Below are positions 12,552 to 63,572 of a DNA stretch of 64,000 nt, in pieces; the stretch's first letter is position 1; each line of letters starts with the position of its first letter. Made by a program: the position numbers and the translations under genes. Origin of the DNA: Enterococcus haemoperoxidus ATCC BAA-382 (GTDB lineage Bacteria; Bacillota; Bacilli; Lactobacillales; Enterococcaceae). The DNA is taken from the NCBI RefSeq assembly GCF_000407165.1, contig NZ_KE136479.1:1995464-2059463 (forward strand), read 5' to 3'. Under the pieces are notes generated by a model. It searched no databases and was not told the DNA's origin. It worked only from the letters and a program-made list of their open reading frames with translations.

Positions 12552-13718
12552 TTAAGGATTTACTGCATCCGCAGATGTTTCTTTTCCTTCTGTCAAACCT
12601 AGTACTACAGCAGATTTTTCAGGATTGTGATCTTTATCCATCGTCATTTTTCCTGTTACGCCGACAAAATCTTTTAATGAAGCTAATCCTTCTGTGATCT
12701 CTTTTGAATCAGCAGAATCTCTATCTTCCATTGCTTGTTTCAACATGTAAACTGAATCGTAACCCAAAGCGTTGAAAGCAGATGGCTGTTTATCATATTT
12801 TTTCTTAAATGCTTCTACAAATGGTTTTACTTTATCTGTTGCAGGGGCTTTTTCTGAGAAATGACCTGTGTAATAAACGTCAGATACATTTTTTGCTCCA
12901 GCGATTTCAACTAATTTTTCATCACCGAATCCGTCAGCACCAAGAATTGGTTTGTCGATACCCATCTCGCGTGCTTGTTTGATGATCAAGCCAGCTTCTG
13001 CATAGTAACCTGGAATGTAGATTGCATCGTAATCCAGGTCTTTGATTTTCGTTAAAATAGCTTGGAAATCTTTGTCTCCCGCTGTAAAGGTTTCTTCTTT
13101 AGCGATTTTACCTTTAAATGTATCTTTAAATGATTTCGTCAGCCCAATTGCGTAATCACTTGAATTGTCACCAATGATCACAACATTTTTAGCTTTTAAG
13201 TTGTCTTGTGCGAAGTTCGCTAAGATGACTCCTTGGAAGGTATCTTGGAAACAAGCTCTGAAAATATACTCTTGCACTTTATCATTTACAACAGTGATGC
13301 TATCATCCGTACCAGAAGGTGTGATTACTGGAACTGCTGCTTTCGTCATATTTGGAATCGTCGCTTTTGTTGCACCTGATGTTGCTGGACCCACTACTGC
13401 AACGACTTTATCTTTTGCCGTTAAGTTGGCTGCTACTGATGTCGCTTCGCCATTTTCAGATTTGTTGTCTTTTTCGATCAATTCTAATTTTTTCCCTAAC
13501 ACGCCACCGGCTTCGTTGATTTCTTCAACCGCTAATGTGATTCCTTCTTTTTCAGCGTTCCCGTACGCCGAAACATCTCCAGAAAGTTCCATGTTCATGC
13601 CAATTTTGATCGTATCGCCTTCAGCCTTATTTCCACCTCCGCTTGCGCCTCCGCCAGCTGTTGGACCGCATGCTGCTAGTAAAAATAGACTAGCAAATAA
13701 AAAGCTAAATTTTTTCAT
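12552..13718 (-). CDS. livJ: Branched-chain amino acid substrate-binding lipoprotein LivJ
   Basis: A 388-aa periplasmic-binding-protein type I (Leu/Ile/Val-binding) protein. It has a lipoprotein signal peptide with lipobox LLAAC (Cys17), followed by a Gly-rich linker and the family start IKIGMNMELSGDVSAYG. It would be lipid-anchored outside the membrane and deliver branched-chain amino acids to LivHMGF. The ribosome binding site is AAGGGGGAAACAAA. It is the first gene of livJHMGF-CBS, behind a long leader carrying three repeat hairpins and a promoter next to a CodY box. Confidence 0.93.
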   Translation of the reverse strand: MKKFSFLFASLFLLAACGPTAGGGASGGGNKAEGDTIKIGMNMELSGDVSAYGNAEKEGITLAVEEINEAGGVLGKKLELIEKDNKSENGEATSVAANLTAKDKVVAVVGPATSGATKATIPNMTKAAVPVITPSGTDDSITVVNDKVQEYIFRACFQDTFQGVILANFAQDNLKAKNVVIIGDNSSDYAIGLTKSFKDTFKGKIAKEETFTAGDKDFQAILTKIKDLDYDAIYIPGYYAEAGLIIKQAREMGIDKPILGADGFGDEKLVEIAGAKNVSDVYYTGHFSEKAPATDKVKPFVEAFKKKYDKQPSAFNALGYDSVYMLKQAMEDRDSADSKEITEGLASLKDFVGVTGKMTMDKDHNPEKSAVVLGLTEGKETSADAVNP

Positions 13719-13734
13719 TTTGTTTCCCCCTTGA

Positions 13735-14106
13735 TTTTAAAGCTTGATGTGTTGATTAGCTCTGACTGGAAAATAAGAAAAACAGAATGTGGTGCTTTTT
13801 GCCACAATCAGTTTTTATCCTTTTTCCAAAGAGCTAACACAAAAAGCTAGATGATTTTAAAGCTGATTGTGTTGGTCAGCTCTGACTGGAAAATAGGAAA
13901 AACAGAATGTGGTGCTTTTTGCCACAATCAGTTTTTATCTTTTTCCCGAAGAGCTAACACAAAAAGCTAGATGATTTTAAAGCTGATTGTGTTGGTCAGC
14001 TCTGACTGGAAAATAGGAAAAACAGAATGTGGTGCTTTTTGCCACAATCAGTTTTTATCTTTTTCCCGAAGAGCTAACACAAAAAGCTAGATGATTTTAA
14101 AGCTGA
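13735..14106 (-). repeat. Three tandem 120-bp copies of a structured hairpin element in the livJ leader
   Basis: The copies are 13741-13860, 13861-13980 and 13981-14100. Copies 2 and 3 are identical over all 120 bp, and copy 1 differs at about nine positions. Each folds into a long hairpin (13748-13841, 13868-13961, 13988-14081). The base is TGTGTT/AACACA plus AGCTC/GAGCT, the arms are A-rich and T-rich, and the apical stem TGTGGT/GCCACA closes a GCTTTTT loop (plus-strand reading). The array lies between the livJ promoter (about 14170-14197) and livJ, so it should be transcribed. A covarying fourth copy is at 16533-16628. This could be a mobile palindromic repeat, a processing site or a regulatory RNA. 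Confidence 0.9.
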
Positions 14107-14168
14107 ATAAATTCGTAAAGCCAGATAATTTTCTTCGCATATATAATTATTAAAGAAGTATGTATACA

Positions 14169-14197
14169 AATATAATCAATAACGAAAGAAATGTCAA
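14169..14197 (-). promoter_or_regulatory. Promoter of the liv operon
   Basis: On the minus strand TTGACA (14192-14197) is followed after 17 bp by TATATT (14169-14174). The -35 matches consensus and the spacing is ideal. Transcription would start near 14162, giving a leader of about 444 nt before livJ. Confidence 0.75.
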
Positions 14198-14199
14198 CG

Positions 14200-14214
14200 A
14201 ATTTTCAGAAAATT
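14200..14214. promoter_or_regulatory. CodY box
   Basis: AATTTTCAGAAAATT matches the published CodY consensus AATTTTCWGAAAATT at all 15 positions. It ends 2 bp upstream of the liv -35 hexamer. CodY senses branched-chain amino acids and GTP, so control of a branched-chain amino acid importer fits well. Confidence 0.85.
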
Positions 14215-16504: not shown

Positions 16505-16532
16505 AATTGAACCTCCTTCGTTTAAAAGCGGA

Positions 16533-16628
16533 ACAAGCCGTTTAGCTCTGACAGAAAAATAGGAAAATAGGAATAAGGTGCTTTTTACCTTATTCCTATT
16601 TTATCTTTTTTCCGAAGAGCTGGCTTGT
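16533..16628 (-). repeat. Fourth, diverged copy of the hairpin element, upstream of ysxC
   Basis: It has the same architecture as the liv leader repeats. The base is ACAAGCC (16533-16539) with GGCTTGT (16622-16628), then AGCTC/GAGCT, A-rich and T-rich arms, and an apical 16-bp perfect stem (16564-16579 with 16587-16602) around the same GCTTTTT loop. The stem sequences differ from the liv copies while pairing is kept. The downstream flank to about 16675 (AGCTAGATAA, AAAGCTGA, TCG-AAAGC) is also shared with 14082-14130. Confidence 0.85.
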
Positions 16629-16697
16629 ACAGCTAGATAAGTTACAAAGCTGAACGAACTCGCAAAGCTAAATAACGTTGTTGTATCAAAATCAGTA

Positions 16698-28534: not shown

Positions 28535-28549
28535 AGTTTCCCCTTCTTT

Positions 28550-28588
28550 CTCCTAGTTTTTTTACAAGGGATGGTTGATGAACCTTGT
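28550..28588 (-). promoter_or_regulatory. preQ1-I riboswitch in the queT leader
   Basis: Read on the minus strand: the P1 stem is ACAAGG/CCTTGT, with the loop segment GGTTCATCAACCATCCC between the arms, and the 3' tail is TAAAAAAACTAGGAG. This has the order and spacing of preQ1-I aptamers: short stem, C-rich loop, A-rich tail, then the CTA pseudoknot strand. The tail runs into the ribosome-binding region of queT, suggesting control of translation. The small hairpin GAGG...CCTC lies just upstream (about 28590-28606). Confidence 0.85.
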
Positions 28589-28623
28589 CGAGGATCTGTT
28601 TCCTCAAAAAATGATACGTAGGC

Positions 28624-35579: not shown

Positions 35580-35694
35580 TAAAAAAAACGTATCGCCTCG
35601 GTGTCAATCACTGCGAGTCGCTACGTTAGTGAAGCTCTTTTCACTAACTTTTATCAGAACAGGAACCTGATAAAAACCAATGAAAAAACAACTT
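35580..35694 (-). ncRNA. Candidate small RNA of about 115 nt with three hairpins
   Basis: On the minus strand a promoter (TTGCAA 35724-35729, 17 bp, TATATT 35701-35706) would start a transcript near 35694. It contains hairpin 1 (TTTTATCAG/CTGATAAAA, 35649-35675) and hairpin 2 (GTTAGTG/CACTAAC, 35625-35648). Hairpin 3 (AACGTA..CG.CTCG with CGAG.CG.TACGTT, 35587-35627) follows and ends in eight T, an intrinsic terminator. The terminator could also belong to rlmA, and the RNA could be a trmL leader. No known RNA family is recognised. Confidence 0.5.
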
Positions 35695-51305: not shown

Positions 51306-51648
51306 ATTATACTAAATGTAGGAATTTTTTTCTACTTCAAAAATTTACTATCGATATTACTTTTCTGAAGAATAAATTCGCCAAACATGTTTTTTTATTT
51401 GCTTTTTGATCAATAAAATAGCTTTAGTCTTTCACAGATGAATAGAGCTTTATCCTTATGTCAAAAAAATTTTTATTTTCCATATAACACTCACCTTCTT
51501 ATAATCAATCCCCAATTAATAGTCCTATCCTGTCAGCATTCTAATCTAAATTAAAATTTTCTTTCTGTTCTTTTGTGAAAAAGTTCGCTACAATGAAAGA
51601 GGATTTTGAAAAATTTCCTGAAAATTATTAAGGGGTGCAATTTTTTTA
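51306..51648. other. Intergenic region upstream of the HAD gene
   Basis: An AT-rich region with no gene. TACAAT (51589-51594) is a likely -10 for the HAD gene, with a poor -35. The near-CodY box follows at 51612-51626. Confidence 0.5.
51612..51626. promoter_or_regulatory. Near-perfect CodY box upstream of the HAD gene
   Basis: AATTTCCTGAAAATT matches the CodY consensus at 14 of 15 positions. It lies just downstream of the probable -10, where binding would block transcription. Confidence 0.55.
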
Positions 51649-62316: not shown

Positions 62317-62421
62317 GAATTTAGAACAGCTGAAAAGTTCTATTCTAACTTAGGTTTTCAAGTGAAGAATAACGAATAAGTTGAAGATGAACATGGCTAT
62401 ATCCTTGTGGAAAAAATAAAA
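62317..62421 (+). pseudogene. Remnant of an acetyltransferase C-terminus
   Basis: One frame reads EFRTAEKFYSNLGFQVKNNE, a TAA stop at 62377-62379, then VEDEHGYILVEKIK. The first part closely resembles GNAT C-terminal ends (AEKFYxxLGF). It has no start codon or ribosome binding site and is about 35 codons long, so it looks like the decayed end of a lost gene. Confidence 0.5.
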
Positions 62422-62463
62422 AATCCCCAACCGATTATTTTTAAATCGACTAAGGATTTTTTT
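62420..62463. terminator. Bidirectional terminator
   Basis: AAAAATCC..CCGAT pairs with ATCG..AGGATTTTT, with T runs on both strands. Confidence 0.7.
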
Positions 62464-62471
62464 CTTGTTCC

Positions 62472-63572
62472 CTATATAAGTTCTTGTTTAACCTTATAAA
62501 GTAAAAACAATAAAAATACCACATTCACGAATAAAAATAGCGGTATAAAATCTTGGATAAGCAAACTAATGATGATCCATATCGCAAAATAAATCACACT
62601 TTTACTAATGAACGGAAGGTAATTATGCTCTTTTTTTGTATAAATGATCATATTAACAATCGTTCCGCCTAAGAAACAAGCTAAGCTAGCAGCCAAACAA
62701 AGTACAAAGAAAAGTGGTTTGATCTGCGCTTCTACATAATTTTCATACAAAACAAGTGACAAACCTAGGCCAACGAAAATAAAATAATGCGAATGGATCA
62801 AAACCAAACCGGCTGTTTCTTTTTGTCGCTCGATCCCTGATTTATACACTGCATTGTAAAAAAGAAACATTACAACAACCATCAGAAAGAACAAGACACT
62901 ACCAATACTTATTTTATTAAAAACGATCGTATTGGCAACTGCAATCACTGCTTCACCAAATAATAATAGCGTAAATAGACTATAACGCTCCGTTAAATGT
63001 CCAAAATTCGTAGGAAAGTCTTCCAAATTTTTCTTCATAACTATCGGGAAAAATGCTGTAATAAAAATAGAAATCGCATACACACTAAAACGAATAGAAT
63101 AAGCTCCCCACGGTAAAATTGTGATAAACCCGATCAACCCAGTTGCACATAACATAATCGCTAATTGATAACATAACTTTTTAACAACAGAATCTTCCGT
63201 ACTTCTCATTTTCAAATAATACTGCAACGCAATACTGAAAAATAAAATAGAAGTTGCTCCTGCAAATGTAAAATGTGTCTTCTCAAAATCAACATTGATC
63301 GACTGAGCCAAAATAATTACCCAGAACATATCAAAAAATAAAAATAGCGCACTTATCTTATTCTTAATAGAAAATCGGTTAGCAAAAACAGTTTGGTACG
63401 TCCAAATCGTCCAAAAAACTAGTGTCAACATTAGAAACTCACCCATGCTTTTGAAGGATAGCACTTGATCTGCACCAACAAATAGAATTGATGCAATACG
63501 ACTGATTGCATAAGCAAAAATCAAATCATAAAACAGTTCGAACTCGGAAACCTCTTTTTTTAGTACCTGCAT
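62472..63572 (-). CDS. ltrA: Low temperature requirement A (LtrA)-like membrane protein
   Basis: A 366-aa protein with about ten membrane segments and the LtrA features: an early FELFYDLIFAYAISRI, and HLTERYSLFTLLLFGEAVIAV in the middle. LtrA was named from a Listeria cold-growth mutant, and its biochemical function is unknown. It is a single gene. Confidence 0.85.
   Translation of the reverse strand: MQVLKKEVSEFELFYDLIFAYAISRIASILFVGADQVLSFKSMGEFLMLTLVFWTIWTYQTVFANRFSIKNKISALFLFFDMFWVIILAQSINVDFEKTHFTFAGATSILFFSIALQYYLKMRSTEDSVVKKLCYQLAIMLCATGLIGFITILPWGAYSIRFSVYAISIFITAFFPIVMKKNLEDFPTNFGHLTERYSLFTLLLFGEAVIAVANTIVFNKISIGSVLFFLMVVVMFLFYNAVYKSGIERQKETAGLVLIHSHYFIFVGLGLSLVLYENYVEAQIKPLFFVLCLAASLACFLGGTIVNMIIYTKKEHNYLPFISKSVIYFAIWIIISLLIQDFIPLFLFVNVVFLLFLLYKVKQELI

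Follow-up and report, generated by a model that had tools for sequence, protein, structure and literature searches.

A tandem hairpin array before a livJ-like gene of Enterococcus haemoperoxidus belongs to a dispersed palindromic repeat that usually ends directly 5' of Shine-Dalgarno sites

Upstream of a livJ-like gene in Enterococcus haemoperoxidus ATCC BAA-382, three long and nearly identical hairpins follow one another in tandem, and the question raised by this locus is whether they are there to regulate the liv operon or have come there as a mobile repeat. The original prediction, made from the letters of the window (the whole stretch of 64,000 nucleotides that was analysed), allowed for both. 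The array occupies positions 13732-14106 with a period of 120 bp, 3.1 copies and 96% matches by TRF, in agreement with the predicted three tandem units of 120 bp upstream of livJ. The relevant features are given below, where R1 is a covariance model of the repeat built from 36 copies with their flanks removed.

12552-13718, minus strand: livJ-like gene for a periplasmic-binding-type protein (open reading frame; PF13458 Peripla_BP_6, E 3.6e-58)
13726-13731, minus strand: Shine-Dalgarno (SD) site of livJ, AGGGGG, 7 nt past the end of copy 1, read from the sequence
13739-13848, minus strand: repeat copy 1, closest to livJ (R1 match 108.1 bits; -39.6 kcal/mol, z -7.2)
13859-13968, minus strand: repeat copy 2 (R1 match 118.6 bits; unit -37.0 kcal/mol, z -5.5)
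13979-14088, minus strand: repeat copy 3, on the promoter side (R1 match 118.6 bits; 0 differences from copy 2)
14099-14122, minus strand: shortened relic with the outer stem of the repeat only, read from the sequence
14169-14197, minus strand: promoter-like site of livJ, TTGACA-17-TATATT (11/12 match; counterpart in 20 of 21 ortholog leaders)
14200-14214, no strand assigned: CodY-like box AATTTTCAGAAAATT beside the promoter-like site (exact match)
16525-16634, minus strand: fourth repeat copy, 20 nt 5' of the ysxC/engB start codon (R1 match 115.7 bits; GTPase match)

As had been claimed, copies 2 and 3 are identical and copy 1 carries about nine changes: it differs from the other two in 12 aligned columns, three of which are flank beyond the unit and nine of which lie inside it. 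The fourth copy, which the prediction only implied, is the one before engB, the GCTTTTT loop can be read in the sequence as stated, and the array does lie between a promoter-like site and the livJ start codon (ATG at 13718). The predicted hairpin per copy stands as well, since the livJ-strand folds lie far below those of shuffled sequences (for either copy, none of 200 shuffles was as good), but its paired span is about 110 nt and not 94. A weak R1 match of 22.7 bits at 62383-62493 is a possible fifth copy, perhaps decayed.

What controls livJ can be addressed by comparing leaders. The promoter match alone says little, because the livJ upstream region holds three such sites against 2.4 expected from shuffles, and it is the conservation of the site among relatives that supports it. 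The adjacent box, assigned by what we take to be the CodY consensus, is exact in 14 of 21 livJ ortholog leaders and has at most two mismatches in all 21. Elsewhere in the window, a second CodY-like box with one mismatch occurs at 51612-51626. By the R1 model a full repeat copy is present in 6 of 25 livJ-type loci (Enterococcus ureasiticus, E. crotali, E. caccae, sp. DIV0212c, E. plantarum and E. moraviensis), a weak fragment in one (E. termitis), and no match in the remaining 18. Since box and promoter are kept in livJ leaders while the repeat varies, branched-chain amino acid control of liv is more simply assigned to CodY, as its putative regulator.

The number of copies per livJ leader ranges from 0 to 3 across species, with three in the window and two each in the related genomes G006 and G013. 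Because copies 2 and 3 of the window differ in just two columns from the promoter-side copy of G006, and because the third copy is missing in both G006 and G013, the livJ copies appear to have multiplied locally. A relic like that at 14099-14122 is also present in the livJ leaders of six relatives.

The array is one of many. A blastn query with one unit gave 65 matches in the organism's own genome, and R1 gave 127, of which 123 were kept and grouped in 82 sites (the four dropped were two reverse-strand self-hits and two 56-nt partials). A covariance-model search across Enterococcus, which the original prediction had proposed, found the repeat in all 22 genus genomes searched, with 3 to at least 150 copies each, the genus counts at or near 150 and all counts for G013 being lower bounds. 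At the family level, with stricter filters and the best 36 candidates per genome, 37 of 105 genomes matched at 1e-8; at the order level, with the best nine candidates per genome, 94 of 395 matched R1. Outside the family there are 68 matching genomes, ranging from those with a single weak match up to G209, which has six, the best at 3.5e-30; single order-level matches near 1e-9 may reflect chance or other hairpins. In plasmid and phage collections blastn found no match to the repeat, and among viral contigs a pattern search picked out 24 stretches; two of them (L252 and L263, which belong to the same record) contain six real copies, arranged as two arrays, and that of L263 precedes a gene resembling the one behind our own site C2:762616. 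With no blastn match and with viral copies from a single record only, carriage by plasmids or phages was rejected.

The sites of this dispersed family have one unusual and unexpected trait, namely a preference for the place directly 5' of an SD. We called an array SD-adjacent when an SD and a start codon with a reading frame behind it come no more than 34 nt after its last copy. By this definition the sense-strand 3' end of the array is SD-adjacent at 65 of 82 own sites and, among the matches listed, at 66 of 94 sites in G013, against 196 of 14080 random non-coding positions (1.4%), taken from the same loci on both strands and scored for an SD 2-13 nt away. The spacing is narrow, with the SD starting 6-7 nt past the element in 53 of the 65 own and 62 of the 66 G013 SD-adjacent sites. 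Many of the exceptions also lead to an SD. Ten of the 28 non-adjacent G013 sites run into a further, lower-scoring copy and nine into a linker module and then a later SD, while nine have no SD within 400 nt; among the 17 non-adjacent own sites, nine have an SD within 400 nt and eight do not, and two of the 17 (C1:224630 and C2:570985) have an ATG about 20 nt on with a weak or unlisted SD. In the open literature searched we recognised no earlier description of a repeat abutting the SD.

A crude gene caller assigned a downstream gene to 81 own sites; at three of them this gene is antisense to the array, and none of the 81 lies between convergent genes. At the 63 sites where a start follows directly behind the array, the upstream gene is codirectional in 49 and opposite in 14 by the same caller. 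The downstream genes of the own sites are diverse, with no shared theme, and presumably include dnaA, tsf, rplI, map, aroC, argF, dapA, lgt and genes for V-ATPase subunits, as we recognise them. The array at L119 2526-3124 has five low-scoring copies in a row that are antisense to both neighbours, of which we take the adjoining one to be nrdD-like.

Site occupancy differs between species. Among the matches listed for G013, 25 of the 66 SD-adjacent genes match an SD-adjacent own gene at more than 75% identity, and the other 41 have no SD-adjacent counterpart in the own list. The lgt site is empty in six genomes (G017, G015, G002, G012, G005 and G016), where the upstream gene, presumably hprK, ends at the SD of lgt and leaves no room for a hairpin between the genes; in the filled own site the stop codon TAG of that gene overlaps the first two bases of the element. 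The tsf site is empty in G012, G016, G015, G005 and G002, holds short forms in G017 and G020, and has from one to at least three copies in other genomes, and a full copy at engB is limited to some of the genomes. The copies are both dispersed and present or absent at orthologous sites (lgt, tsf, livJ), as those of a MITE would be. At engB, where a relic is shared, G003 lacks a full copy and the own genome has one behind the relic; together with the spacer between copies, TTTTAANNTTATCT, this comparison fits the insertion of whole units directly before GGAGG. The shortened relics at engB and livJ could themselves be stem-loop insertion targets. Filled sites show the motif TAAATT 5' of the SD, which most empty sites lack. 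Of 176 left flanks, just 58 have TTATCT at their end, and in the tables of these flanks no clear target-site duplication was seen.

Is the hairpin maintained as RNA or as DNA? In 113 own copies, 91.5% of the alignment cells pair, and both sides have changed in 605 cells, compared with 210 in shuffles and no more than 136 after partners were slid, in an alignment fitted to the model and thus favouring the pairing. Over 33 pairs the same copies have 265 G-U and 131 A-C cells. Leaving out the three most G-U-rich pairs brings the counts to 128 and 109; this post hoc choice lowers the G-U side, so that the figure for all 33 pairs is the fairer one to set beside tRNAs. The 63 best distinct copies give 147 G-U and 52 A-C cells over 33 pairs, and 53 and 44 over 30. 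By comparison, 36 distinct tRNAs of the same genome, drawn from the 30 loci of the best matches, have 42 G-U and just 4 A-C cells at fixed stem positions, although selection by ARAGORN may favour clean stems. On the opposite strand an A-C cell reads as a G-T pair. Since A-C cells are common beside G-U, unlike in tRNAs, palindromy seems to be maintained for both strands, as expected of a DNA repeat or of repair between the arms, more than by selection acting on the sense RNA only; this points to pairing that is preserved in the DNA no less than in the RNA. In the middle helix, nevertheless, two pairs are strongly biased towards G-U (63 against 2 and 21 against 2 A-C cells), a hint that the sense RNA is under some constraint. 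The middle helix itself, UCGGAAAAAAGAUAAA with UUUCCUAUUUUUC, is nearly invariant, mismatches included, and is likely to be the contact of whatever binds or moves the element. The original prediction had named a random scatter of elements lacking conserved pairing as evidence against itself; in fact the scatter is not random and the pairing covaries, but the element is indeed dispersed and not confined to liv.

Were the hairpins a liv-specific attenuator or riboswitch, one would understand why they sit between the promoter and livJ and why the whole leader folds at -128 kcal/mol, far below the -85 kcal/mol of shuffles. However, some 65 unrelated genes have this element in front of them, just 6 of 25 livJ-type loci hold a full copy, with a fragment in one more and 18 without a match, there is no Rfam match at the array, and the CodY-like box is within two mismatches of consensus in every one of the 21 leaders. 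We consider such a device very improbable, and the predicted leader regulator special to liv is not supported. Another candidate is a regulatory leader RNA of the whole genus, in which a protein or small-molecule ligand of the hairpin would tune the translation or decay of many genes. It must contend with genes that have no common function, with the 41 of 66 SD-adjacent G013 genes (among the matches listed) that lack an SD-adjacent counterpart in the own list, and with A-C cells far commoner than in tRNAs. We regard it as unlikely, in spite of the sense orientation, the fixed distance to the SD, the strong covariation, and the nearly invariant middle helix with its G-U preference in two pairs, all of which speak for it.

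This leaves a mobile repeat, whose placement could result from target choice or from survival. In the latter case insertions would have been scattered over intergenic regions and those that spared promoter and SD would have survived, an account consistent with the 17 of 82 own and 28 of 94 G013 sites (the latter among the matches listed) that fail the strict SD test, and with the three own arrays that are antisense to the downstream gene. Survival alone, however, predicts a broad range of distances and not an SD at 6-7 nt in most SD-adjacent sites of both genomes, and convergent gene pairs, between which insertions should do no harm, contain no own site by the crude gene caller; untargeted insertion therefore seems to us rather doubtful. 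The narrow SD spacing favours target choice over selection, and one may tentatively propose a palindromic repeat that homes to SDs, in which insertion recognises AGGAGG and sets the unit directly 5' of it in the sense orientation. This is possible, although we would not yet expect it to hold.

Whichever way the units were placed, we conclude that the livJ array consists of members of a dispersed, modular palindromic DNA repeat, most probably an SD-sited miniature mobile repeat of the EFAR/Efa-1 kind. Its dispersal, its species-variable sites, its sense orientation and its usual end directly before the SD are direct observations, and the mobile palindromic repeat that the original prediction offered as its other reading, amplified at this place, is well supported by the dispersed family, by the 0, 1 or 2 livJ copies of relatives against three here, and by the two identical copies. 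A helper activity would place, or would once have placed, the unit directly in front of a native SD; by sparing the ribosome-binding site, such an insertion would be tolerated in operon interiors and in front of essential genes. The livJ leader would have received one copy when the promoter and the CodY-like box were already in place. Judging from the copy comparison, it may have become two before the split from the two close relatives, and the promoter-side copy may have been duplicated again in the own lineage. The copies, given their position, would be transcribed as leader hairpins, and whatever they do to liv expression is probably incidental and does not explain why the array is there.

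The repeat has a core of about 111 nt and a repeating unit of 120-122 bp, and some forms of about 172 nt have a second hairpin. Arrays hold one to five copies, plus relics and a linker module, and so are modular in make-up and of varying length. The 172-nt forms at L058 and L062 fold as two adjacent stem-loops and the 174-nt form at L046 does so less cleanly; this two-hairpin pattern occurs at two own sites and in six G013 contexts, most copies being single hairpins. The linker module, of about 75 nt (TGCTTTGAAACACAGTGAATAAAATGAACTG...), lies directly behind a copy or between copies (at L058, L201 and others) and has 37 nhmmer matches over 176 site contexts, some of which overlap.

EFAR elements are reportedly modular, 42-650 bp long and mostly 170 bp, and stem-loops are said to be their insertion targets, whereas the insert described here adjoins a native SD. 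Like EFAR/Efa-1 of E. faecalis, the present repeat is enterococcal, intergenic and palindromic with tens of copies, and its size, some forms of about 172 nt with a second hairpin, the linker module and the shortened relics resemble what is described for these repeats; its basic unit differs in being a single hairpin of 111 nt. Efa-1 is 163 nt long, with 65 copies, 18 of them complete, and two adjacent stem-loops (PMC2267715), and EFAR is cited as a MITE of enterococci (PMC3733652). Judged by these descriptions, the repeat is probably of this kind. It also resembles BOX of Streptococcus pneumoniae in being modular, structured and dispersed, with tandem units of varying number. In BOX the number of tandem internal units varies and some copies are transcribed, and it is over-represented between convergent genes, at gene distances that follow ordinary intergenic lengths (PMC3049150), whereas our repeat has a fixed SD spacing and none of 81 sites between convergent genes by the crude caller. 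With REPs and REPINs, which go with Y1 or RAYT transposases, it shares a palindromic, dispersed and non-autonomous nature, but REPs, at 20-40 bp (PMC3733652), are shorter than its unit, and Y1_Tnp is missing from 10 of the 22 genomes that carry the repeat.

No mobiliser was found in these 22 genomes, where Y1_Tnp was the sole transposon relative sought; it is present in 12 of them, and the own-genome copy is a fragment with two stops. Mobilisation by an IS200/RAYT transposase was rejected, Y1_Tnp being missing from the copy-rich G006, G009 and G014. At L033 3031-3263, two copies stand about 20 nt before an open reading frame that we take to be TnpB-like. Since two G013 copies have a closely similar 3' flank behind them, we read this gene as a host gene and rejected it as a helper.

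If the placement does reflect target choice, we would be looking at a mobile element for which the ribosome-binding site is a safe place to settle, and many gene leaders would have been lengthened at once, differently in each species. Homing to SDs, if true, would let the repeat colonise the leaders of essential genes and the interiors of operons without killing its host, and would leave these leaders rebuilt as hairpin arrays. The 0, 1, 2 or 3 copies before the same gene form a natural series in which a stable structure 5' of the SD can be set against expression. There is also a warning here, in that covarying hairpins in many leaders can stem from a repeat and not from a riboswitch, and setting the number of G-U cells against that of A-C cells is an inexpensive way to check for this.

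Two further readings of the array were put aside. A strong terminator on the sense strand is unlikely, since terminator-like sites were flagged on the plus strand only, antisense to livJ, and since we would not expect one in arrays before genes such as dnaA and tsf. A known RNA family was rejected because the four Rfam matches at gathering score in the whole window include none at the array. Elsewhere in the window, a PreQ1 riboswitch match lies at 28547-28592 on the minus strand, barely above its gathering score, and a 23S-methyl RNA motif at 35582-35686, also on the minus strand.
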